In this document: in pieces, positions 28,623 to 42,995 of the stretch | How positions within the stretch are numbered: position 1 is the first letter of the stretch | Layout of the letters: each line of letters starts with the position of its first letter | Assembly: GCA_036268055.1 (NCBI GenBank) | Contig: DATAUW010000001.1 | Span: 1 to 64,000, forward strand | Source: Verrucomicrobiia bacterium | GTDB lineage: Bacteria; Verrucomicrobiota; Verrucomicrobiia; Limisphaerales; Pedosphaeraceae | Direction of reading: 5' to 3' | Length of the DNA stretch: 64,000 bases | Notes under the pieces: model-generated | What the model was told of the DNA's origin: nothing | Seen by the model: the letters and a program-made list of their open reading frames with translations, nothing else | Database searches by the model: none | Program-made: the position numbers and the translations under genes

Positions 28623-30071
28623 ATGAACCGGACATCTCACCTCCTCGCATTTTGTGTTTCCTGCCTGTTAGTAATTTCGCCGCGCTGGAGCCAGGCCGCG
28701 TCTCGTCCCAATGTTCTTTTCATTTTGATAGACGACATGGGTTACGCCGATCTTTCCTGCTACGGCGAAACGCGCATTCAAACTCCGCACCTCGATCAAC
28801 TCGCCCGCGAAGGCATCCGCTTCACCCAATTTTACGTCAACGCCCCTATCTGTTCGCCATCGCGCACCGCCTTGATCACCGGGCAATTTCCCGCCCGCTG
28901 GCGCATGACTTCATATCTCGCCGAACGTCAGCTCAACACGGATCGCGGCATGCCTCAGTGGCTTGATCCCGCCGCTCCTACCCTCGCGCGCACGCTTCAA
29001 ACTGCGGGTTACACCACCGGCCATTTCGGCAAATGGCATATGGGCGGCCAGCGCGACGTCGGCGAAGCTCCACTCATCACCGAGTACGGTTACGACAAGA
29101 CGCTCACCACCTTTGAAGGCCTCGGCGACCGCATCCTCCCGCTGCTGGATGCCTTCGACGGCAAGCCCGCCAAAAAATATTCCCTCGGCTCCGACAAACT
29201 CGGCCGCGGCAAAATCACCTGGCTCGACCGTTCACAAGTCACCACGGCCTTCGCCAGCAACGCCCTCGCTTACATCCAGCAAACCGAAAAAACCGGCCAG
29301 CACTTCTACGTTGACCTTTGGCCAGATGACGTTCATTCGCCGTTCTTCCCGCCGAAAGATCTCCGTGGCGACGGTTCCAAGAAGCAACTTTACCTCGGAG
29401 TCGTTAAAGCGACTGACGACCAGTTTGCCCCGATCATTGATTACATCCGCACGAGTCCAACGCTCAGCACGAACACCCTCATCATCGTCGCCAGCGATAA
29501 CGGCCCCGAACCCGGCGCGGGCTCACCCGGTATCTTCCGGGGTTTCAAAGGCAATCTCTACGAAGGCGGCATCCGCGAACCATTCATCGCTTGGGGTCCC
29601 GGCCTGTTGGCTCCGGCCTCGCGCGGCACGGTGAACGACACTTCCGTCATCGCAAGCGTGGACTTGCTTCCGAGCATCGCCAAAATCACCGGCGCACCTC
29701 TTCCCGCAAACACGGATTTCGACGGCGAAGATCTCAGCGACACCATCCTCGGCAAAGCGCATCAGACCCGCACCAAACCGCTGCTCTGGGTTCGTCCTCC
29801 CGACCGTCCCGGCAATGCCAAAGTGCCCTTCCCCGACCTCGCCATCCGCGACGGCGATTGGAAACTTTTGATCATGGAAGACGGCAGCCGCCCGCAACTC
29901 TACAACCTCGCCAATGATCCGCGCGAAACCACCAACCTCGCCGGCAAACAAACTGAAATTCTCGCGCGGCTGAAAACAAAACTTCTCGACTGGCGCAAGA
30001 CCCTTCCGATCGCTCGCCCCTGGCCGTGGAACCCCAAACAAATTCCCGCCACCGACAAAACGCCGTCATAA
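28623..30071 (+). CDS. Secreted formylglycine-dependent sulfatase
   Basis: 482 aa. Signal peptide (LLAFCVSCLLVISPRWSQA, cut near 26), then the alkaline-phosphatase-fold sulfatase domain: metal ligands ILIDDMGYAD (D37, D38), modification motif C77-S-P-S-R81 followed by TALITGQ, HFGKWHMGG, and ASDNGPE. Cys77 must be converted to formylglycine by an FGE or anSME, not present in the window. Hydrolyses sulfate esters of an unknown substrate, probably a sulfated polysaccharide. Stands alone, transcribed away from tRNA-Val. Confidence 0.9.
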   Translation: MNRTSHLLAFCVSCLLVISPRWSQAASRPNVLFILIDDMGYADLSCYGETRIQTPHLDQLAREGIRFTQFYVNAPICSPSRTALITGQFPARWRMTSYLAERQLNTDRGMPQWLDPAAPTLARTLQTAGYTTGHFGKWHMGGQRDVGEAPLITEYGYDKTLTTFEGLGDRILPLLDAFDGKPAKKYSLGSDKLGRGKITWLDRSQVTTAFASNALAYIQQTEKTGQHFYVDLWPDDVHSPFFPPKDLRGDGSKKQLYLGVVKATDDQFAPIIDYIRTSPTLSTNTLIIVASDNGPEPGAGSPGIFRGFKGNLYEGGIREPFIAWGPGLLAPASRGTVNDTSVIASVDLLPSIAKITGAPLPANTDFDGEDLSDTILGKAHQTRTKPLLWVRPPDRPGNAKVPFPDLAIRDGDWKLLIMEDGSRPQLYNLANDPRETTNLAGKQTEILARLKTKLLDWRKTLPIARPWPWNPKQIPATDKTPS

Positions 30072-30746: not shown

Positions 30747-31988
30747 TCACTTCGCCAAAACCTCTTTCACCAACGTGTCGTCGCCATCGTTATGCGCGGG
30801 CGTAAGTCCGAGCGTGGCGCAAAGCAGATTATAAATGTCCACGTTCGGCCTTGGTGGAAGCGTCACACCATGCCGAAACGCCGGTCCCCAGGCGATGAAC
30901 GTCGCGCCCATGGATTCCAATTCGGGATCGAAGCCGTGAGTCGCGCTCTCAAAATTCCGCGTCGGATCCAGCGGCCGGCGATTGATATACCAGCCTTCGT
31001 CCGCCACCAGCACGACCGGCGGAATGCGCGGGTTATCGGTATAATGATAACGCTCCGGCATGTTCTCGCGGCGATAAACTTTGAAGTGGTTTTCCTTCCC
31101 GGCAAATTGGTTGTAAAGCGCATCCACATTTCCATCGAGCGGACGCAAACCGGCGATGGCTCCCGTCGCATCCACGCGCACAGTATCCAAATTCACATAA
31201 TTGCTCAGGACGATAATGCGGTTCGTGCTCAAATCCGTCATGCCGTGATCGGAGACAATGATGATGTTGGCGATGTTGTCCAGTTGAAGCTGATGCAAAC
31301 CATTCGTCAGCCGCCCAATCGCCTCGTCCACTTGCGCCACCGCCTTTTCGACCTGCGGCGATTCCACGCCATGATGATGCGACTCAGAATCCACCTCGTG
31401 AAAATAAAGCGTCATAAAATTTGGCCGCTGATTCGTTTGCGCCAGCCAGCTCAGCCCCATATCCACGCACGCATCGGGAGAAACGTGTCCATCGTAAGGT
31501 TTCCAAATCGTCGGTCGCACACCTTCGATTTCCGCTTCGGACCCCGGCCAAAATAAACAGTCCGCCACGCGCCCCTGCTTGATCGCCGTCACCCAGATCG
31601 GTTCGCCCTGCCACCAGCGGCCATCGCCGGGCCCGGGATTATTCGAGATATTAAATTCCGCCTTAAAATTCGGATCGTAAATCCGGTTATTGACGATGCC
31701 GTGATGTTCCGGCCACAAACCAGTGACGATGGTGTAGTGATTCGGAAACGTGAGCGATGGAAATGCGGAAATCAATCGCTGCGCATGGACGCCTTCCGCC
31801 GCCAGCGTGTTCAAGTTGGGAGTTTCGTTTTTAAATTTCTGCAAATAATCCCAACGAAACCCATCCAGCGAAATCAAAATCAAAATCCGCTCGCGCGGCG
31901 ACGCCAGGTGCGGTTCATCAGCGCCAGCAACAACCGCCGAAACCACGATAAAAAAACCAACCAGCACACGGCAAAAACGCTCTCTCAT
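30747..31988 (-). CDS. Secreted nucleotide pyrophosphatase/phosphodiesterase (ENPP family)
   Basis: 413 aa. Signal peptide (CRVLVGFFIVVSAVVAGA, cut near 24), then the alkaline-phosphatase superfamily ENPP pattern: ISLDGFRWDYLQ (metal ligand D42), nucleophile Thr80 in PSLTFPNHYTIVTGLWPEHHGI, NNRIYDP, and IVSDHGMTDL. Hydrolyses pyrophosphate or phosphodiester bonds of nucleotides or lipids; exact substrate open. Confidence 0.88.
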   Translation of the reverse strand: MRERFCRVLVGFFIVVSAVVAGADEPHLASPRERILILISLDGFRWDYLQKFKNETPNLNTLAAEGVHAQRLISAFPSLTFPNHYTIVTGLWPEHHGIVNNRIYDPNFKAEFNISNNPGPGDGRWWQGEPIWVTAIKQGRVADCLFWPGSEAEIEGVRPTIWKPYDGHVSPDACVDMGLSWLAQTNQRPNFMTLYFHEVDSESHHHGVESPQVEKAVAQVDEAIGRLTNGLHQLQLDNIANIIIVSDHGMTDLSTNRIIVLSNYVNLDTVRVDATGAIAGLRPLDGNVDALYNQFAGKENHFKVYRRENMPERYHYTDNPRIPPVVLVADEGWYINRRPLDPTRNFESATHGFDPELESMGATFIAWGPAFRHGVTLPPRPNVDIYNLLCATLGLTPAHNDGDDTLVKEVLAK

Positions 31989-32123: not shown

Positions 32124-35100
32124 TCAAACTTCTCTCGCGCGCATATTTTTCCCAATAAGCGTAAGCACCACCACCATTGCAAAAATCCCCACCAACACAC
32201 CGATGCGCACCACCCACGAAGCCGCGCCCGCCGCCGTTACTTTCAGGCCGATCTTCAAATCCGCCCAGCGATCCACTGCCACCGCGCGTTTGAAAGTCAG
32301 CACGCGCCCCTGCTCAGGAATGCTCGCGCGAATCGCCGCCGGCGTGCTGACCGCCGCGTCCTGTTGCTGAATGATGCGTTGCGCGAGACGCATGAATGCG
32401 CTGTTGTCGTCGGCCGTGTTGCGGTCAATCATGTCCTTCGCCTGCTGCTGCGAGTAAGCCATTTCCTTGCGCCCGCGCAGGTCACGAAAAATTCCACTGG
32501 CGCCACTCGAATCGCCCACCGCCGCCTGCCGCACATTCAAACCCACCAGCGCCTCCTGCAATTTGAGATTATTCAACTGCACGCGCGCGTCCTCGTTGAA
32601 CGCATCGTCTCCCTGGCTCAAACCGTACGCCGATTGAAACGCGCGCCGCGCCTGTTGTGGGTCGCCGTTCTGAAGCATGTTGTTGCCGAATGCCAGCATG
32701 TCTTCAGCCGCTTTGGTTTTCTCGCGTTGCGCATTCGCCTCATTTTTTAAATATGTGTTTGCGTCCAGCGCGGCCACCGCAGCCACGCCGTCACCCGCTT
32801 GCAACTGAAACGAACCGCCCCAATTTTTCAACCGCCATTTGTCATTCAAACAAACGCGCCAGGTGATGTCTTCGAGCGGCAAATCAAATTTCGGCGCCAG
32901 CAAATCCAAGTCGAGCCGATGTCCGCCCGCGGCTCCCGCTTCGTTCGCGTAAAAAATTTCCACCGGAATCGGTTTGTTGTCGCGCGATTGCTGCTCAAGT
33001 GGAATGAGAATTTGGTCTTCCTCGCGCCACGGCCAGACGCCATTTTGGTTCACGAATGCGAACCAAAACTTTGCCCCCTTCGGCAAGGTCAATTTCAGCA
33101 ATCGCTTGTCACCCGGCAGGATTTCCAACCGAGCCTCTGTGAGCATCGCACCGTTGTCAGAAATCACCGAGGTCAGCGTGACGTTATTAACCTGCGCCTG
33201 CAAAAGTTTCGCCGCTTCATGGCGGTCCAGCGTCAACGCCAGTTGAAAACTTGGTTCCACGAGGCGATACGCAAAATTCGCCGAGGCCGATGGCAAGTCC
33301 TGTTGCAACGCGCGCGGGATGCTCTGCCATTCCGCCGGTTGCAACGCCGCCGGCGGCGAATCCACACGCAGTTGCAGCCGCCCACCCGCCTGTAACGTCA
33401 CAAAACCGCGTTGCAAATTAACATCTGCGACTTGCACGCCGCGCAAAGTGGCCTGTGTGGCTTGCGCCTCCAGCACCGTATTATAACTCGCCTGAAGGAA
33501 GTAAGTGCCGATGACGCGGCGTTGCAATTTGATTTCCCACAACTGCAAGCCATTGGTCACCGCGCCGTGTACCGGGAGAAAGTCAGCCACTTGGTCGCCT
33601 TGAAAATGCACGCTCTCCGCATTCTCCGGCAACCGCACGTGAAAAGTTTTCAAACCCGTGTTCTCAATTTGATATTGCAGGTTCGCGATGACTTTGACTT
33701 GCGCCTCGTTGATCGTCGCGTGTTGGAGGCTCGTCACTTGTATCCACGGGTCCACGCGTTCGGTATCGAGCGCCAGGCTCCATTGTGTCTGCAAAATTCG
33801 AAAAGCCAGCACGCCCTTTTGTTGGATGCCGGACTTCTGTGGATCGAGTTGCGTCACACCGTCGCGCGATGCCACGGATAAACGCATCCCCTGTTCCGGC
33901 GCGATGACCAATGTCCCGCGCTGTTTGCTCGCCTCGCGCAAAACCAGTTGCGGAACCGTCCAGCCATTCGTCGCTTTCACGCCCGGCCCGGAAAGGCTCA
34001 GCGCAAATTGCTGCTGCCCCTCCGTCTTCCCGCGCAGATGCAGCGTGATCACGCTGCCCGCGTCGCCCTTCGATTCCGTCCAGTGACTCAACGCCGCGCC
34101 GCTCACCGATTCCACGTCCATCCCGGCGGGCAGCACGAAGCTCAGCCGAAAAATTCCCGCGCGCGTGATGTCCACCGCCGCGTCCACCGCAAGCACGGTG
34201 CGGTCTTCCCCGAGCGAAAGCGTATTTTGCGTTTCCACGCGCACGTCCGGTTCGACGGCCGACGCCTTGAGCGAAACCACCGCGTTCACCTCCGAATAAC
34301 GAAATGCGCGCCGCACGGTCAGTCCGGGAATTTCGTTTTGCAACGCTGCCGCCAGGTTGCCTGGGAAATCTTCGAGGTTGATCGGTGAAAAATTATTCGC
34401 CGCCACCTTATCGAGTTGCACTTCGTTTCCTGTGGCAATGCCGAGCAAGCCAATTTGTCCCGCGGCATTTTCCACCGAAATCAAGCCCACCGATTTCTCC
34501 ACCGGCAACGGCCCGGTCGCAACCTGCGAGCGAATCATCAACGCAAATGGACGCGACTGTGGCGGATTGAGGCTGACGCGCAGTTTGCGCGCGTCGGGAT
34601 CGAATCGCCACACGGACACAAACGAATTTCCCGATTTTGAATTCACAGCGGCATCGCTCACGTCCGTGATGGTCGCGCTGGGCGGCACGTCGAAAATAAG
34701 TTCGCTCAGTTCGCCTTGAGCGGGGCGGATCGCCGCGAAATGAGCGCCTTCAATGACCCCGGCGCTGGGCACGTCGAGCTGGGAAAGTTCCGCGTAGAAA
34801 ACCGGCTTCTCAAGCTTCACATCGCGACTGCGGGGCTGCCAGGAAATCCACGCGTCAGCGGCGGGCGATAGCACAAGCTTCGCGACGGTGTTGCTGCCCG
34901 AAGTCTCCCGCTGAACGGACACGGCTTGTTGCGAACGCACATCCACGTCGAGATTCATCAGCGTGAGTTGCAGTTGATTCACCAGCGCGAATTGCGTGGG
35001 CAAAGTCACCCCGCTCACGCCGTTGCCTTGTATGATGGGCAGTTCATATTGCACTTCCACGTCGAACGCGCCGCTTTCCTGCGCGAGCAATTCTTCACCG

Positions 35101-38100
35101 CGCCGCCCCGCGCTCTGCTCCAGTTTGAACGCGCGATTCGGAAACGTCACGTGCGTGAGAATCGCCGGCTCGAATAACAGCGGCAGACGATCTCCCCTGC
35201 TCGCCTGCCAATGAATCTTCGCGGTCGCGAAGGCAAATTTTTCTTCGACGCGCATTTGTTGTACGATGGATTGCGCCAGCGGCGTTTCAACTGCCTTCAC
35301 ATTCGGCTTGTCCTTGGCTTGCGCTGGCGTTCCCGCAAAGCAAAACAAAATCAATCCACCGATAAGCCACGCGGCGACGACCGGCGCGCCGCCTGAGTCC
35401 GCTAAACCACCCGCAGACCGGCGCGGCAACTTCCACCATGCACGCATGGCTGGAACAAAAATCTGCCACACGAAAAATACCGCGAGCAGCCACAGAAAAA
35501 TCTCCACCCCGTTATCCGAACGCAATGCCGCCCACGCCAGCAAAGTCCAGCCCGCGGCCTCCAGCCACGCGCGCTTTTTGCCCCGCGCATAAATCCACAC
35601 CCCAAGCGCGGCGAACGCGGGCCACGCCTTCGCCATGACCTCCAAGCCGCTATTTTTTTCGGGCACATTACCCACCTCGGCTTGCAATGCGCTCCCCGCC
35701 TGCTGCACCGGCGCGAGAAAAGTAATATCGTATGGAATCGCATGATGCTGCCGTCGGACGAGGTCGTGAAGATAGGCCAGCGCCAACAGCGCCAGGCCAA
35801 ACGCCACGAAACCCAGCAGCCATTTAAAAATAGACTGGGCGCTGAACTTGCCGGCCTCCTCGCGGCCAGTCCAGCGCCACAGTATTGCGGAACTCCCCAC
35901 CAAAAAAAGTAACGCAATCAATAAAAACATCGCCCGCCCGGCATCGGTGCTGGTCAAAAGCCGCATCAGTTGTCCGAAACCCGAGATGTCCGGCACTCCC
36001 CCAATCGGTGTCAATGAACCGCGGCGATACACCAGCCGCTGGCCGTCGTCGGGCGTCAATTTCCATTCCGCCAGCATCACCGGCGCATTCACCGTTGGCG
36101 TCGCGATACTCAGCAATTTCGCGTCCGTGGAACGCGCCGCCAGTTTCAAATCCAAAGTGAGAACGGCATTGGGATCGGCGCGTTGCGGCAGCGGAATCAA
36201 ATTGGATTTTCCATCGAGCACCGGCACGACCGCCGCGCCGTTGACCGATGCCGACCACAACTCCGTGCCTTCGGGCAGCGTGAGCCGGAAGTTTGGGTTG
36301 CCGCGATTTTTCACGAAGTAACGAACGTCGGTCAACACCTGCCCTTCCTTGGAAATGCGCGATGAAATGGTGGCGCGATCAACCACCTGGCTGAGCGAAT
36401 CACCTTGCGCCAGCGGGCTCAATGCGAGTTTTAAATCGAATGGCCGCGACGTGTAGCGATACGCCGCAAGAATCGGCGCGTCAAAAAACAGGCGATATTC
36501 CGCCGGCACTTCGCCCGTTTCCAGCGGCAGCAAACCCGGCGAAACATTGGCGGGCTTCACTTGAAATTGATACGCGCTGATCACAAGCGTGTAACCCTGT
36601 TCGGTCTGCGCATCCACCGGTCGCGCGCCGGTGAATGAAAGCGTCTCGCCCTGCGCCTTGAACGGACGCTCGTAGGTCGCGAGCAGCGTATAAACCCCCG
36701 AGACCGGCGTATGCAGTTGCACCACATAACCGCCGTTCGTCTTCACCCAGTTCCGAATGTCTTTGCCAGTAAACTCGACGTTGAAATATTCATCCGACAA
36801 ATCCACGCGAAACGCCGACACTGGCGCACCCGACACCGCATAATTCATCACACTGCTGCCGTAAGCGACCCCTTCGCCGATTGAAAACAAATGAAACACA
36901 TCCGCCTGCACGGTTTGGGGAAGACGCTCGACGCGCATGGTCGCTTCCCACGTCGGTTCTTCGAGACGAAACGCCTGCTGGATGCCCGCGACTTTGCGCG
37001 GAAAAAATGCCGTGGCGATTTCCGTCAATGCTTGCGTGCGTTCCGGCGTGAGGCGAAATCCCGCGTCCGACGACACGCTCACATGGCCGCGCACGGACTT
37101 GGCATGCGCGACTTCAATGCGTGGAAGCGCCCAATTCGTCGTGTCCAATGCCTGATTGCGCTCCAATCGCAATTCGATCACTTGCCGTCCCGAAACCGGC
37201 GCGCCGTAAACGATGCGCACATCCGAATCGGATTTGTCCGGCGCATCTGTCACAAAATAATCCGTCATGCCCGCGGCGTTGATGCGCGCAATGGCGTAGC
37301 CCTTCGGCACGTTCAACAAAAGTTCGCGCAACGGCGCTTCGCGCACGTCCAGTTCGAGTTCGGCATCAATCGCCAATTCGCTTTCGCCGAGATGATAATC
37401 GAATAATTCGGATACTGTGAGTTCCGGCAGAATTTGGTCCGCCTGAATTCGCAGCGCAAAATCCGCGCCGGAAAAACGGTAGGCAAATCGTTGTTCGCCC
37501 GTGGCGTGCAGATTACGGATGACATCATTCTCGGGAAATTGTTCGGGCGAAATTTGTGAGAGCCCGCTGGCTTGCGCCACTTCCAATCGCACCGCGCCTT
37601 CGTTGACAATGCGAAAATATCCGGCGAAACGCGTGGCCGATTCCGGCCGCAGTTGCATCACGTCCGCCGTCTGCGGAAACGCGCCCAGCGGCGTCTGCGC
37701 CTGCACGGTAAGCGTGAACTGATCTTTTTGCGGCTGGTTCAGTTGCACGGTAAGCAAACGGTCGGTGGAATTCGTGATGGGCTCGACGTTCCACGCCAGC
37801 ACATGCTCGCCCTGCACACGCGTCACTTCGCCGTCGCCATGCAACACAAGCGTCGCTCGATTCAACTCGCCTTGCATGACCTTGAAATCCATCACCGCGT
37901 CTTGCCGCATCAAACCGGGGCTCACGCTGATTTGCGAAATCATTTCCGCGGCGTAAAAAAGTTTGCCCTCAACTTCCGTCCGCGCTTCCTTCCACGAAAG
38001 TTTTACGTTCCCATCGCTCGGCAGAAAGCTCATGAAATCATTGCCACGGCGTTCCGGCAGCGCCGCGCCGGGAAATTGAAATTGCGTATCTGCGGCGAGT

Positions 38101-38519
38101 CCTTGCAACACAACCGGCAGCAATGTTCCGGGCGCGATATGAAAATCCACGCTGTTGCCATTGTCATCATGCATGACTGCTGCGGCGAATTTGATTTGAA
38201 ACGGAAATTCTCCCTTGCGATCAAAGTCCAGCGCGAATCCATTTTGTTCAACGCGCACTCGCCATTTCGGATTGGTCGGAACATCCATCAACGCGACCGT
38301 CCCTTTCAACAAATCAAGCGAACCCGCATTCTCCACATGCGCAATCGCATTCAGCGTGAACACGGCGCGGTCGTCGCGCAAATCACCCGTGAGTTTGAAA
38401 TCGTGCAACGTCACCGGCGGCGGCGCGTAAGCTTCCGCCCGCGCGCCATTGGGTAATGTTGCTGTCAAAAACGCCAGCATGGTTGCGATTCGCAGACAGA
38501 GTACGGGTGCAAGTTTCAT
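32124..38519 (-). CDS. Giant membrane protein with duplicated ectodomain (2131 aa)
   Basis: Unrecognised family. Signal peptide (MLAFLTATLPNGARA, about residues 13-28). Ectodomain A (30-855), six predicted membrane helices at about 863-885, 894-915, 967-981, 984-999, 1004-1021 and 1046-1063, ectodomain B (1070-2095) and a final helix near 2102-2125. The halves share modules: ELNRATLVLHGDGEVTRV (about 213) parallels ELSELIFDVPPSATITDV (about 1268), and the KEGQVLTDVRYF...LTLPEGTELW segment (about 716-760) parallels DNGAMLTEARLE...LTLPKGAKFW (about 1785-1830). The TPR-like stretch near 1965-2010 may bind partners. Third gene of the sigma/VWA operon, 19 nt downstream; presumably a surface or periplasmic partner of the chimera, role unknown. 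Confidence 0.8.
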   Translation of the reverse strand: MKLAPVLCLRIATMLAFLTATLPNGARAEAYAPPPVTLHDFKLTGDLRDDRAVFTLNAIAHVENAGSLDLLKGTVALMDVPTNPKWRVRVEQNGFALDFDRKGEFPFQIKFAAAVMHDDNGNSVDFHIAPGTLLPVVLQGLAADTQFQFPGAALPERRGNDFMSFLPSDGNVKLSWKEARTEVEGKLFYAAEMISQISVSPGLMRQDAVMDFKVMQGELNRATLVLHGDGEVTRVQGEHVLAWNVEPITNSTDRLLTVQLNQPQKDQFTLTVQAQTPLGAFPQTADVMQLRPESATRFAGYFRIVNEGAVRLEVAQASGLSQISPEQFPENDVIRNLHATGEQRFAYRFSGADFALRIQADQILPELTVSELFDYHLGESELAIDAELELDVREAPLRELLLNVPKGYAIARINAAGMTDYFVTDAPDKSDSDVRIVYGAPVSGRQVIELRLERNQALDTTNWALPRIEVAHAKSVRGHVSVSSDAGFRLTPERTQALTEIATAFFPRKVAGIQQAFRLEEPTWEATMRVERLPQTVQADVFHLFSIGEGVAYGSSVMNYAVSGAPVSAFRVDLSDEYFNVEFTGKDIRNWVKTNGGYVVQLHTPVSGVYTLLATYERPFKAQGETLSFTGARPVDAQTEQGYTLVISAYQFQVKPANVSPGLLPLETGEVPAEYRLFFDAPILAAYRYTSRPFDLKLALSPLAQGDSLSQVVDRATISSRISKEGQVLTDVRYFVKNRGNPNFRLTLPEGTELWSASVNGAAVVPVLDGKSNLIPLPQRADPNAVLTLDLKLAARSTDAKLLSIATPTVNAPVMLAEWKLTPDDGQRLVYRRGSLTPIGGVPDISGFGQLMRLLTSTDAGRAMFLLIALLFLVGSSAILWRWTGREEAGKFSAQSIFKWLLGFVAFGLALLALAYLHDLVRRQHHAIPYDITFLAPVQQAGSALQAEVGNVPEKNSGLEVMAKAWPAFAALGVWIYARGKKRAWLEAAGWTLLAWAALRSDNGVEIFLWLLAVFFVWQIFVPAMRAWWKLPRRSAGGLADSGGAPVVAAWLIGGLILFCFAGTPAQAKDKPNVKAVETPLAQSIVQQMRVEEKFAFATAKIHWQASRGDRLPLLFEPAILTHVTFPNRAFKLEQSAGRRGEELLAQESGAFDVEVQYELPIIQGNGVSGVTLPTQFALVNQLQLTLMNLDVDVRSQQAVSVQRETSGSNTVAKLVLSPAADAWISWQPRSRDVKLEKPVFYAELSQLDVPSAGVIEGAHFAAIRPAQGELSELIFDVPPSATITDVSDAAVNSKSGNSFVSVWRFDPDARKLRVSLNPPQSRPFALMIRSQVATGPLPVEKSVGLISVENAAGQIGLLGIATGNEVQLDKVAANNFSPINLEDFPGNLAAALQNEIPGLTVRRAFRYSEVNAVVSLKASAVEPDVRVETQNTLSLGEDRTVLAVDAAVDITRAGIFRLSFVLPAGMDVESVSGAALSHWTESKGDAGSVITLHLRGKTEGQQQFALSLSGPGVKATNGWTVPQLVLREASKQRGTLVIAPEQGMRLSVASRDGVTQLDPQKSGIQQKGVLAFRILQTQWSLALDTERVDPWIQVTSLQHATINEAQVKVIANLQYQIENTGLKTFHVRLPENAESVHFQGDQVADFLPVHGAVTNGLQLWEIKLQRRVIGTYFLQASYNTVLEAQATQATLRGVQVADVNLQRGFVTLQAGGRLQLRVDSPPAALQPAEWQSIPRALQQDLPSASANFAYRLVEPSFQLALTLDRHEAAKLLQAQVNNVTLTSVISDNGAMLTEARLEILPGDKRLLKLTLPKGAKFWFAFVNQNGVWPWREEDQILIPLEQQSRDNKPIPVEIFYANEAGAAGGHRLDLDLLAPKFDLPLEDITWRVCLNDKWRLKNWGGSFQLQAGDGVAAVAALDANTYLKNEANAQREKTKAAEDMLAFGNNMLQNGDPQQARRAFQSAYGLSQGDDAFNEDARVQLNNLKLQEALVGLNVRQAAVGDSSGASGIFRDLRGRKEMAYSQQQAKDMIDRNTADDNSAFMRLAQRIIQQQDAAVSTPAAIRASIPEQGRVLTFKRAVAVDRWADLKIGLKVTAAGAASWVVRIGVLVGIFAMVVVLTLIGKNMRAREV

Positions 38520-38538
38520 ATTTTCTCCTTAATTAAAA

Positions 38539-41500
38539 TTATTTTCCCGAAATGGACTTCGCCTCGCGGATCATCTCTTCCAATTTTGCCGGGCGCGCAT
38601 CGGCGCCATAAGTCTGCGGCACGCCCGCGAGATAACGGAGTAATTGATCGGGCGTCACTTCAGCCGCGTAAGGACTGTTCGCAAGCCATTCGGCGAATTC
38701 CCCGGCGCTGGCCGCAAGTCGCATCGCGGGACTCGCCTGGTCGAGCGCCACGCCGCTGCCGTTGTAAGGAACTTCCCACGCGTGCTCGCGATATTCGGAA
38801 GTCCCCGGCACGCGGAAACGCACGTGCACGGTGGCGATGGCGCCTTCGCCGCTCGCATCGGTTTCCACGACGTAAAGCGCGTTGCCCGATTCCGCCGCGC
38901 CGATTTCCGCCGCATCCACGGAGTTATCGCGGAACTGTTGCTTGGTAAGTTGATGCTTGGCGTAACCGATCTGGCGATACGCCTTCACGCGTTTGGGATT
39001 AAACTCAACTTGCACTTTCACATCGGCGGCGGCGATGTTCAGCGCACCCGCAAGCTGTCCGGCAAAATCACTCGCCGCTTCGGCGGGCGTGTTGAGAAAA
39101 CCGTAACGCCCGTCGCCATTGCGCGAAAGCGCTTCGAGCAAATCGTCATTGTAACCTTCCCAGCCAATGCCAAAACAATCGAGCGCGATGCCTTGCTTGC
39201 GATTCGCTTCGACTTTTTGGCGAAGCGTAGTCGCGTCCACATTGCCAAGATTCGCCGCGCCATCGGTGAGCAGCACCACGCGATTGACACCGTCCGCGAG
39301 GTAATGACGGCGCGCCGTTTCGTAAGCGAGTCTCATCGCGTCCTCGAGATTCGTGCCGCCTTGCGGAGTGAGGCCGCTGACTTTCTCGAACACCGCGCCC
39401 GCCTGATCGCCCGGCACGCCATCCACCCAAAGCCGCGGCGTGCGCGCAAAAGTCACGATGCTCAATTTGTCCTGCGGTTGAAGCTGCGTCGCCAGCACGC
39501 GCAAGGCTTCGTGAATGATCTGCACGCGATCCGCGCGCTCCATCGAACCGGAATTATCCAGCAGCAAAACAATATTCAACGCCCGCCCCGGCGGACGCCC
39601 CGCAGCCGCCGTCTTCACCGAGAAGCGGAGCAAATCGCGATTGTGTGCGAACGGATCATGCGCACGCTCCCAGGCAAAACCCAGTGGCGCACCCGGCGCA
39701 GGATCGGGATCGCGATAATCGAACGCATTAATAAATTCCTCGCTGCGGATGGATGCCGCATCCGGCATCACGCCCTTATCCAAACTCGCTTCGGCAAGTT
39801 TGAACGAGACATCCGCCACGTTGAGCGAGAAAGTTGAAAAAGCATTTTCGCGCGTGAGAATTTCCGGCATAGGAATAGGAAGCTGCACTGCGGATTTGGC
39901 GAGCGGCAGATCTTTCTGTTGATTGTCCAATTGTTTTTTCAACACAGCCAACTCTTGCATAGTGCGCGCCACCTTTAAGTCCTGTTCAGCCAGTTGAACT
40001 TCGATTTGCTTGACCTTTCCAAAATCAGCGTTGCTGCGTTGTTCGGTCTTAAAATCCCTTACCGCAACGGCAAGTGCATTTGCAATGTTGGCTGCCTCAA
40101 CGGGGTTGTCACTCTTAACGCCAATATCCACTAAACTGGAGTTTTTTTCCGGGCGGACATCCAGGCTCTTTTTCAACCGAGCGCGCGCCTCGGATTCAGT
40201 CAACGGCGCGCCTCCCTTATCGGCCCATACTTTTTTCAAATCCAGCTTTTCAATGACCTTATCAAGCACAGCTTTCGATTGAATAGTCTCAACCTCGCTT
40301 TGCACAAAATGAGGATCGTACGTCTGCGCAGTTGCATTTCCTGAAATTCCACTGATATCCGAAACATCATGGTCAGATTTAATCCGCGCGCGCCTTTCAA
40401 CTGTGCCAGTGAAAAATCCAGTGACTTTTTCAGACAGACTTCGATTGGATGTTGAATTGGTCTCCGCCCGCTCGACGATTTCGACCATTGTGGTATTGGG
40501 CATCTTTGTTTCGACGTTTTCCTGCAAAACTTTCAGTTTCGTCAGATCGCGAGTCGTGGTTAATGATTTTAGCTCTTCCTGTTTTTCCTGGTACGCCAGC
40601 ATTAGGTTGGACGCGTCGGAATCAGACTGCGCAACCGCCGATTGCGATTGCATCGCCTTGTTTATCCAGTTGGGGGTCGAAGCGCCACTCATGGGAACCT
40701 CATCGCGAGTTGCGGGATCGTAACTGAAAGTGACGTTATCCGAAAGTGTGGCCGAATTTAGAGTTGATAAATTGGAACTAGTGTCCTTTGTCCATGCCTT
40801 ATCGACGTTTTTTAATCTGTCGGAATTTTTCAATTCATAAGCGCGCGCGTCATTGGCCATTTTCCGCTGTCGAAAGGCTTGCAGGTCATTATCTATTTTA
40901 TCGCTTTGAAATGAAGGTGTGCGTTCAATCTGACTAGCAACAGTCTGGTCGTTCTTGAAAGCGCCGATGTCGGCAATTCCACCGCCACCGCCACCAGCCC
41001 CTAAAACACCAGGATTATTACCGGCGAGTTTAGCGTACTGCTGAACATTATTGGCGGTATGAGCATTTGAGGCTGGCAAGTTGACATACCCAACGATTCC
41101 TAAATTGTATTCATTACTGTTATCGCCTCCGCCTCCGCCGCCAAAGCCTTGAATAGAACCGCCCACCCCGACTTGGACCTTGTCCTGGCTTCCTGAAACC
41201 GTATCCGCCAACTGAACCGGCGGAGTGATAGCATTCAAATTTCCGTTAGCGGCAACCACGCCTCCCGTCGGCGCGGCAGGTGCGGTCGGCAATCCAAAAG
41301 CAGTTTTTTCGTTTTCGACCAAAGCCGGCGCGGCCATCGGCGCGGGCTCAGATGCTGGCAAAACAATCTCGGATTTTCCGGCGGTGGCTGATTTGTCAGC
41401 CGGTTGCACAAAAATTGCAAAAGGTGAGCCTGCTTGTGGAGGAGTCAAAGGTGTAGTAGATCTGGCAGACCCGGTATTAAACGTCCCCTCTGATTTCAAT

Positions 41501-42273
41501 CCACGCGATTGCGGTTGCAGGCTATCCATTTCCTGTGGTGTCTTCGTTTGAACCAACTGCATTTCTCCCACTGGCACTGTCGCCCCATTCGCATAAATCC
41601 GAACACTTCCACTGGCATCCGCGCTGGATGGCAGATTCACGCCAAGCAATTTCTTTGCCTCACGGCGATCCACTTCCGCGGAAGCCGATTCGCCGACCTT
41701 GCCGATCAAATATCTTTCACCCGCGACCGGTGGAAGTTTTCCCCCGGGAAGATACGGTTTCAAATCTTTGAATGTAGGTGCATCCTCGGCGCCTTTTTTG
41801 TTGTCACCCGCCCACATTTCCTTCGCCATATCCAATTCCCGCAGATTGGAAAGCGTGTTAATCCGCATCGCTTTCGATTTCGACTTTGCGAGCGCGGGCA
41901 AAAACAATCCCGACAGAGCAATAAATATGACCGCGCACGCCGCCAGCAACATCCAATTAATCTTTTGCGGCGCGGACGGCTCCGCGAATTCCTTCGGCAC
42001 AATCGTCTTGAACTGCGCGAGCAATTTTTCGCGGCGATCAGCGGAAAGTTTTAACGGCGCAGCCGGCGCGGCTTCGGCCTGTGCGGCGCGACTGGCAGCT
42101 TCAACCAATTTGATCGTGGGCTTGAGACGGTCGTAAAGTTTCGCCAACTCGGCATTCTCCTCAAGTTCCTGGCGCAACGCGGCGGCCTTGTGCGCGGGCA
42201 ATTCGCCGAGCAGATACGCGGTCAGGCGCGCTTCGAATTCCGCGAGTTGTTCGGGTGGAAGTTCGGGGTTCAC
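38539..42273 (-). CDS. Anti-sigma/pseudopilin/Wzz-like/von Willebrand chimera (1244 aa)
   Basis: GTG start overlapping the sigma stop. Modules in order: (1) anti-sigma-like N-terminus, residues 1-100 (LTAYLLGELPAHKAAALRQE; no zinc ligands); (2) transmembrane helix about 107-127; (3) a pseudopilin-like segment, 122-205 (LFLPALAKSKSKAMR, NLRELDMAKEMWAGD, PTFKDLKPYL), as in verrucomicrobial type II-like pilins but without a prepilin cleavage site; (4) a low-complexity Gly/Asn/Pro region to about 560; (5) a Wzz-like polysaccharide-chain-length domain about 624-750 (ARIKSDHDVSDISG, YDPHFVQSEVETIQSKAVLD, SDNPVEAANIANALAV), then a coiled coil; (6) a YfbK-type pre-domain 808-880, a VWA domain with MIDAS D906-S908-S910 (DNSGSM), GGTNL and LTDGAANLG; (7) a C-terminal DUF3520-like domain to 1240. 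Function unknown; likely membrane-tethered regulator. Confidence 0.8.
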   Translation of the reverse strand: MNPELPPEQLAEFEARLTAYLLGELPAHKAAALRQELEENAELAKLYDRLKPTIKLVEAASRAAQAEAAPAAPLKLSADRREKLLAQFKTIVPKEFAEPSAPQKINWMLLAACAVIFIALSGLFLPALAKSKSKAMRINTLSNLRELDMAKEMWAGDNKKGAEDAPTFKDLKPYLPGGKLPPVAGERYLIGKVGESASAEVDRREAKKLLGVNLPSSADASGSVRIYANGATVPVGEMQLVQTKTPQEMDSLQPQSRGLKSEGTFNTGSARSTTPLTPPQAGSPFAIFVQPADKSATAGKSEIVLPASEPAPMAAPALVENEKTAFGLPTAPAAPTGGVVAANGNLNAITPPVQLADTVSGSQDKVQVGVGGSIQGFGGGGGGDNSNEYNLGIVGYVNLPASNAHTANNVQQYAKLAGNNPGVLGAGGGGGGIADIGAFKNDQTVASQIERTPSFQSDKIDNDLQAFRQRKMANDARAYELKNSDRLKNVDKAWTKDTSSNLSTLNSATLSDNVTFSYDPATRDEVPMSGASTPNWINKAMQSQSAVAQSDSDASNLMLAYQEKQEELKSLTTTRDLTKLKVLQENVETKMPNTTMVEIVERAETNSTSNRSLSEKVTGFFTGTVERRARIKSDHDVSDISGISGNATAQTYDPHFVQSEVETIQSKAVLDKVIEKLDLKKVWADKGGAPLTESEARARLKKSLDVRPEKNSSLVDIGVKSDNPVEAANIANALAVAVRDFKTEQRSNADFGKVKQIEVQLAEQDLKVARTMQELAVLKKQLDNQQKDLPLAKSAVQLPIPMPEILTRENAFSTFSLNVADVSFKLAEASLDKGVMPDAASIRSEEFINAFDYRDPDPAPGAPLGFAWERAHDPFAHNRDLLRFSVKTAAAGRPPGRALNIVLLLDNSGSMERADRVQIIHEALRVLATQLQPQDKLSIVTFARTPRLWVDGVPGDQAGAVFEKVSGLTPQGGTNLEDAMRLAYETARRHYLADGVNRVVLLTDGAANLGNVDATTLRQKVEANRKQGIALDCFGIGWEGYNDDLLEALSRNGDGRYGFLNTPAEAASDFAGQLAGALNIAAADVKVQVEFNPKRVKAYRQIGYAKHQLTKQQFRDNSVDAAEIGAAESGNALYVVETDASGEGAIATVHVRFRVPGTSEYREHAWEVPYNGSGVALDQASPAMRLAASAGEFAEWLANSPYAAEVTPDQLLRYLAGVPQTYGADARPAKLEEMIREAKSISGK

Positions 42274-42824
42274 GGCACGACTCCATTTCTCGCCAGTTCA
42301 TCGGCGATTTCCTTGAGCGCGTGATGCAGCAGGTAACCGACGTGCCCGACTTTCAATCCCGTGCGCGCGCTGATTTCCTTATACGACATGTCCTCGGTGA
42401 ACTTGAGCCGGATCAATTCGCGGCTGCGCTCGTCGAGAGTTTCCAGACTGAGTTGCACCAGACCCACGCCTTCGAGCCGCGAAATCAATTCATCGGGCAG
42501 CGGCTGGGAATCGGCGGTATCGAGTGAAGGCGGAGCGTCAATTTCGGTAAGGCTGTCAAACGAAATGGTTTTTGCGGATTGACGGCGATGATTGAGGGAC
42601 TGGTTATGCACCGTGCGATAAAGCCACTTGCGCGGCTCGCGAACTTCTTTGAACTGGGCGTGCAATTTCATGAAAGCATCCTGGACAGTGTCCTCGGCAA
42701 GGTTGCGATCACCGAGCAAACGGAGGGCATACGCGAGCAGCGGTGATTCGAGGTTGGCGAAAAGCTCCTCGATCGTTTCCCCTGCCGGCGGCTCGCTGAC
42801 TTCTTTTGCTCGCATTACGGCCAT
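42270..42824 (-). CDS. ECF-family RNA polymerase sigma factor
   Basis: 184 aa. Region 2 (about residues 20-90: LLAYALRLLGDRNLAEDTVQDAFMKL, WLYRTVHNQSLNHRR) and region 4 (about 120-180: LSLETLDERSRELIRLKFTEDMSYKEISARTGLKVGHVGYLLHHALKEI) are complete, with the short linker of ECF sigmas. First gene of the operon; its TGA overlaps the GTG start of the chimera gene, so expression of sigma and its probable anti-sigma is coupled. Predicted to direct RNA polymerase to an envelope-stress or surface regulon. Confidence 0.9.
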   Translation of the reverse strand: MAVMRAKEVSEPPAGETIEELFANLESPLLAYALRLLGDRNLAEDTVQDAFMKLHAQFKEVREPRKWLYRTVHNQSLNHRRQSAKTISFDSLTEIDAPPSLDTADSQPLPDELISRLEGVGLVQLSLETLDERSRELIRLKFTEDMSYKEISARTGLKVGHVGYLLHHALKEIADELARNGVVP

Positions 42825-42995
42825 GCTCGGTTCGTCCCGCGCGATTCGTGGCGTTCATCCGCCGCCAACCCTCGCGAGACGGTCCTGTCTCACTAGGTAT
42901 GACACACCACGAGGAAGTTTATTAGACGAAAGATTAGGGAAACGGCCAAGGGCACGATTCCGCTATTGTTCGCCCCTGATTTAGAAGAAATTCGG

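Follow-up and report, generated by a model that had tools for sequence, protein, structure and literature searches.

A probable conserved sensor operon in Verrucomicrobiota joins an ECF sigma factor and a membrane anti-sigma/YfbK protein to a giant protein of an unnamed family

The ZAS (zf-HC2) sigma/anti-sigma systems and the YfbK family are among the known systems closest to the locus analyzed here. In ZAS systems, an ECF sigma factor gene with a promoter motif of its own overlaps the next gene, which encodes a single-helix protein with an N-terminal anti-sigma domain, and our locus is alike in these respects. It departs from them in that its clade lacks the zinc ligands, and in the presence of a periplasmic Wzz-like/VWA/YfbK module of ~1100 residues, a pilin-like helix and, as a third gene, a giant of an unnamed family. 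The YfbK family (PF12450 + VWA + PF12034) supplies the same C-terminal three-part module. On a Rhizobium plasmid, an ECF gene and a YfbK-type VWA gene share the very same 4-nt overlap, but no giant follows and, judged by eye, the N-terminus of the VWA protein has no obvious zf-HC2-like domain. Enterobacterial YfbK stands alone; a Salmonella plasmid record places it next to nuo genes, again with no giant. A search of the open-access literature found no paper describing the three-gene system.

The window is a 64,000-nt stretch of a Verrucomicrobiia bacterium genome (assembly GCA_036268055.1, contig DATAUW010000001.1, positions 1–64,000), and all operon features given below lie on its minus strand. 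The operon comprises an ECF sigma factor gene (42270–42824; 184 aa, ATG start), a gene for an anti-sigma/YfbK-VWA membrane protein (38539–42273; 1244 aa, GTG start) and the gene for the giant membrane protein (32124–38519; 2131 aa, ATG start). In the window's list of open reading frames, the first two genes overlap by 4 nt (42270–42273) and 19 nt separate the stop of the VWA gene from the start of the giant; the sequence-only reading had proposed exactly this arrangement, and every coordinate, the overlap and the gap were borne out. An intrinsic terminator scan gave a result at chance level. The three genes probably form a conserved sensor circuit across the phylum Verrucomicrobiota.

The assignment of the first gene to the ECF sigma factors, also made in the earlier reading, holds: Sigma70_r2 (E 3e-11) and Sigma70_r4_2 (E 1.7e-11) both score above their Pfam cut-offs, and TIGR02937 matches above cut-off as well. 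The protein has regions 2 and 4 and no region 3 within 184 residues, below the ~200 aa mark, its gene neighbors an anti-sigma gene, and a two-block, autoregulatory type of promoter precedes it as a conserved motif at the sequence level. This predicted ECF-type promoter, TCTAATAA-N14-TGTCATA (42898–42926), lies 73 nt before the sigma start codon. A common motif upstream of the ECF genes, TCTAAKRA-N14-YGTCDTA, was recognized by eye and then counted; the window promoter matches it exactly, and with at most one mismatch it occurs at 25 of 53 loci against 0.03 expected from dinucleotide shuffles, a ratio inflated by the pattern having been drawn from the same, related loci. A search for the sigma motif upstream of this operon and others had been proposed as a check; its result is positive for the operon itself. 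The N14 spacer is fixed in nearly all motif-bearing loci, and several of the two-gene ECF-YfbK units described below carry a similar motif. Because the 14-base spacer is near-fixed and the motif also occurs in two-gene units, we regard it as most likely a real ECF promoter, through which the operon probably drives its own transcription.

The second gene had been called a chimera that begins with an anti-sigma-like segment and ends in a VWA domain with a MIDAS. Its N-terminal 95 residues (41989–42273) constitute a cytoplasmic domain of the zf-HC2 superfamily from which the zinc ligands are gone: the anti-sigma model NF052375 matches weakly (E 2e-4), zf-HC2 reaches E 0.12 only, and the HxxxCxxC zinc motif of ZAS proteins is absent from the window protein. 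The weak zf-HC2 score and the missing ligands would suit an account in which this region is something other than an anti-sigma domain and nothing but cotranscription unites the three genes, with no sigma/anti-sigma circuit at all. That account is contradicted by the homologous N-termini of relatives, which match zf-HC2 above cut-off in three of the five scanned (E 1e-9 to 4e-11), and by the conserved ECF-like promoter motif before the ECF gene, and we consider it very improbable. HxxxCxxC is kept in 17 of 43 giant-type proteins. From these sequence comparisons, the window domain is a homolog of the zf-HC2 family and not a zinc-bearing member, and we infer that it would bind and inhibit its cognate sigma factor.

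As in ZAS proteins, hydropathy places the N-terminal domain inside, ahead of a single membrane helix (residues 107–125; 41899–41955; hydropathy 2.49); this single helix is predicted to leave the VWA part outside, in the periplasm. The segment LPALAKSKSKA directly follows the helix and resembles the helices of PVC pseudopilins and of DUF1559, which we take to be a pilin-like family. In many giant-type proteins the helix ends in LLPALxxAKxKA, so that, like pseudopilins and DUF1559 proteins, they combine a membrane helix with this segment; under a strict definition the pilin-like motif is found in 21 of 43 giant-type proteins versus none of seven others. In the VWA proteins of two loci (L041 and L049) the helix region matches DUF1559 above cut-off and GspG weakly. 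Unlike in pseudopilins, the window helix is internal, starting at residue 107 behind the cytoplasmic anti-sigma domain, with no prepilin leader, and pilin models gave no match to the window protein. We take the membrane helix of the giant-type anti-sigma proteins to be pilin-derived, as its sequence suggests.

Between the helix and the VWA part lies a segment resembling the polysaccharide chain-length determinants Wzz/EpsF (residues 644–778; 39940–40344; TIGR03017, E 3.8e-8). The likeness to these polysaccharide co-polymerases extends to this one periplasmic segment and is found only in a subset of relatives; its 32.5 bits fall far below the family cut-off of 423 and no paired membrane helices flank it, so membership in the Wzz/PCP family was rejected. 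The C-terminal end agrees with the chimera as proposed: vWF_A (PF12450; residues 807–883; 39625–39855; E 3.3e-12), the VWA domain (residues 900–1062; 39088–39576; E 5e-16) and YfbK_C (PF12034; residues 1077–1216; 38626–39045; E 4e-28, 99.2 bits against a cut-off of 25) follow each other in the order typical of YfbK, all above cut-off and together spanning residues 807–1216. The MIDAS, DxSxS...T...D, is complete; by alignment count its D, S, S and D are invariant and its T is kept in 34 of 40 loci.

The third gene had been described as belonging to no known family, a description that a known, unrelated function would have undone; no Pfam family matched the giant at E<=1, and a PDB sequence-profile search returned no relative. 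Its anatomy is nevertheless regular. A signal peptide (approximately residues 1–29; 38433–38519; from hydropathy, read from the sequence) is followed by ectodomain 1 (approximately residues 30–845; 35985–38432), a membrane bundle (residues 855–1066; 35322–35957), ectodomain 2 (approximately residues 1095–1910; 32790–35237), a conserved C-terminal segment with weak TPR character (32250–32789) and a C-terminal membrane helix (residues 2104–2122; 32154–32210; hydropathy 2.66). TPR models match the C-terminal segment in 3 of 23 giant members, at best with E 1e-3. Alignment of the two halves with hhalign gave E 5e-96 over 783 columns, by which the giant is an internal tandem duplication of an ectodomain of ~800 residues with the membrane bundle between the copies. 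Hhalign and repeat comparison resolve four recognizable units of ~100 aa in each half: units 1–3 of both halves match one another with E 2e-11 to 7e-24, and unit 4 matches its counterpart with E 8e-28 and the other units at best with 5e-7. Because control segments reach E 6e-4 (the remaining controls being worse), the membership of unit 4 in the repeat rests on these two best matches. The bundle shows four clear helices (hydropathy peaks at residues 863, 897, 1007 and 1044), or six when two weaker segments, read from the sequence, are counted; with either number both ectodomains are predicted to face the periplasm, and the loop charges, as read from the sequence, agree with the positive-inside rule. 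Across 23 sequences, the ectodomains have a mean column identity of 65–68%. Of the signaling-to-surface circuit that had been envisaged for the operon, the sigma circuit is supported and a surface location is not; both ectodomains are predicted to be periplasmic, with anchors in the inner membrane.

When one genome per species was scanned for the giant, 30 loci were returned, nearly all labelled Verrucomicrobiota. Its reading frame is intact in 22 relatives at 53–71% identity; because these keep the frame and also the order of the genes wherever enough DNA is present, the operon is not a chance arrangement. It had been asked whether the gene families adjoin an ECF gene elsewhere, and six-frame profile searches found the order ECF, anti-sigma domain, YfbK, giant in all 43 loci that reach the ECF position, with some hundreds of bases between the ECF gene and the next in a few (e.g., L027 and L060). 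The cultured Chthoniobacter flavus has all three genes (L011). In a draw of 387 genomes from the phylum, 73 hold the giant or a distant relative and 134 hold YfbK_C. For 54 of the 67 giants placed by coordinates in that draw, YfbK_C lies directly upstream on the same strand; contig ends explain several of the 13 others (e.g., G213, G245, G331 and G288), and in G318 the YfbK gene is cut (L066). Pairwise identities across 39 loci covary, with r 0.95 for ECF and YfbK and r 0.81 for either against ectodomain 2, the pattern expected if the three genes travel as a unit, although the species tree alone gives part of this signal.

Exceptions exist on both sides. G149, G175 (both family f11) and G124 carry a giant with neither YfbK nor ECF in the ~9 kb upstream of it (L047, L048 and L052), and YfbK_C had no match anywhere in these three genomes; G106 is probably a fourth such case. 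Distant relatives of the giant from other families (L053–L058) are for the most part split across a pair of neighboring genes and hold the ectodomain in two or three copies; they share an N-terminal motif like YIPYEELxKVFExxxRGVFLPYxEF and have no ECF or YfbK next door; they are a separate, undescribed subfamily. A plasmid search for the giant found none. Conversely, ten of the further YfbK loci that were fetched (L068–L072, L075, L076, L079, L080 and L082) consist of an ECF gene followed by YfbK without a giant. These two-gene Verrucomicrobiota units share the first two genes of the window operon, and an anti-sigma domain was recognized in seven of the ten; they differ in having neither a giant nor, in the seven proteins compared, the pilin-like helix, and their YfbK_C resembles the Pfam family more strongly, with up to 262 bits versus 81 here. 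No common third gene was seen after them. The anti-sigma/VWA chimera thus exists as first read but is not peculiar to this operon, giant-less units being common in the phylum: the ECF and YfbK sensor pair is a widespread module of known type, and the giant is the new, added part. One locus (L077:6531–17022) holds an ECF gene, a two-gene-type YfbK, a giant-type YfbK and then a giant in a row, possibly a record of how the three-gene operon originated. Separately, one genome (G309) has two copies of the YfbK-giant arrangement (L059 on contig 48, and contig 36).

Taken together, the operon is most safely read as a self-regulating switch of an ECF sigma factor and a membrane anti-sigma protein, in control of its own transcription and hence of the giant. 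A fuller model, to which we would give about an even chance, adds that the giant is the envelope protein both controlled and most likely monitored. At rest, the anti-sigma domain at the start of the 1244-aa protein would tether the sigma factor to the inner membrane, and the periplasmic YfbK-type VWA part, its metal site intact, would touch a periplasmic ligand or the giant. Envelope damage or a shortage of the giant may alter this contact, whereupon the anti-sigma protein would be released or cut, and the freed sigma factor would fire its own promoter. All three proteins, giant included, would then rise and the contact would be restored; we read the switch as one that sets the amount of giant. 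Monitoring by the VWA module appears likely because gene order and sequence divergence are linked (r ~0.8, 39 loci). The giants that occur without the switch (G149, G175, G124 and L053–L058) argue that the giant has a switch-independent role besides.

The same exceptions bear on what the giant contributes. Both modules occur alone, and the two-gene units lack a conserved third gene, which would be expected if the ECF/anti-sigma-YfbK pair were a complete sensor and the giant solely its output, a regulated envelope protein of structural, adhesive or transport function. Giants without switches and switches without giants keep this account a serious competitor, and we hold it to be a tentative but plausible alternative; it accommodates less readily that adjacency is near-fixed with covarying divergence, and that the giant-associated anti-sigma proteins are a distinct type as judged by the pilin-like helix (21/43 versus 0/7). 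In FecA/FecR-type systems, an outer-membrane receptor passes a signal on to the anti-sigma side, and the giant might by analogy be the true signal receptor, so that a stimulus bound by it would be relayed to the anti-sigma protein via the VWA part of the latter. Its two large, highly conserved periplasmic arms with a helix bundle would fit such a role, as would the MIDAS, which hardly varies and is typical of sites for protein ligands; giants in genomes devoid of any YfbK_C match (G149, G175 and G124) and the lack of a recognized ligand-binding family in the giant speak against it, and we consider it unlikely. We think it similarly doubtful that the giant founds a new class of periplasmic machines, with the pilin-derived helix and VWA part of the anti-sigma protein reporting assembly of this machine or of a pseudopilin-type complex to the sigma factor; if true, a sigma circuit would monitor the assembly of an envelope machine.

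A nameless, strongly conserved family of ~2100 aa with no known structure, present in about a fifth of the sampled Verrucomicrobiota genomes, thus goes almost everywhere with a single dedicated sigma switch. The promoter motif, the defined anti-sigma domain and the repeat anatomy make its function directly approachable, for instance in Chthoniobacter flavus.

The motif gave little indication of a wider regulon, a search for which had also been suggested: with at most one mismatch, the organism's own genome yielded five matches and the reversed control five. Two matches in this 5.1-Mb genome are exact, one of them the operon. The other (L084:1501–1529, contig 30) precedes a secreted serpin gene (PF00079, E 1e-116), ~6 nt from its start codon; all serpin genes read in relatives lack the motif (4–5 mismatches), leaving it unsupported as a conserved target beyond this genome. 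Exact non-operon matches in 26 relatives numbered four, against three in the reversed control, and three of the four are followed, 3–7 nt on, by a plausible start codon for an exported protein, much as at the serpin site. These positions suggest a few real leaderless target genes, but the matches are no more numerous than chance would give, the targets vary by genome and the serpins of relatives lack the site. Just downstream of the giant, the window itself holds genes for a type I phosphodiesterase/nucleotide pyrophosphatase (30747–31988) and a secreted sulfatase-like protein (28623–30071; read from the sequence).
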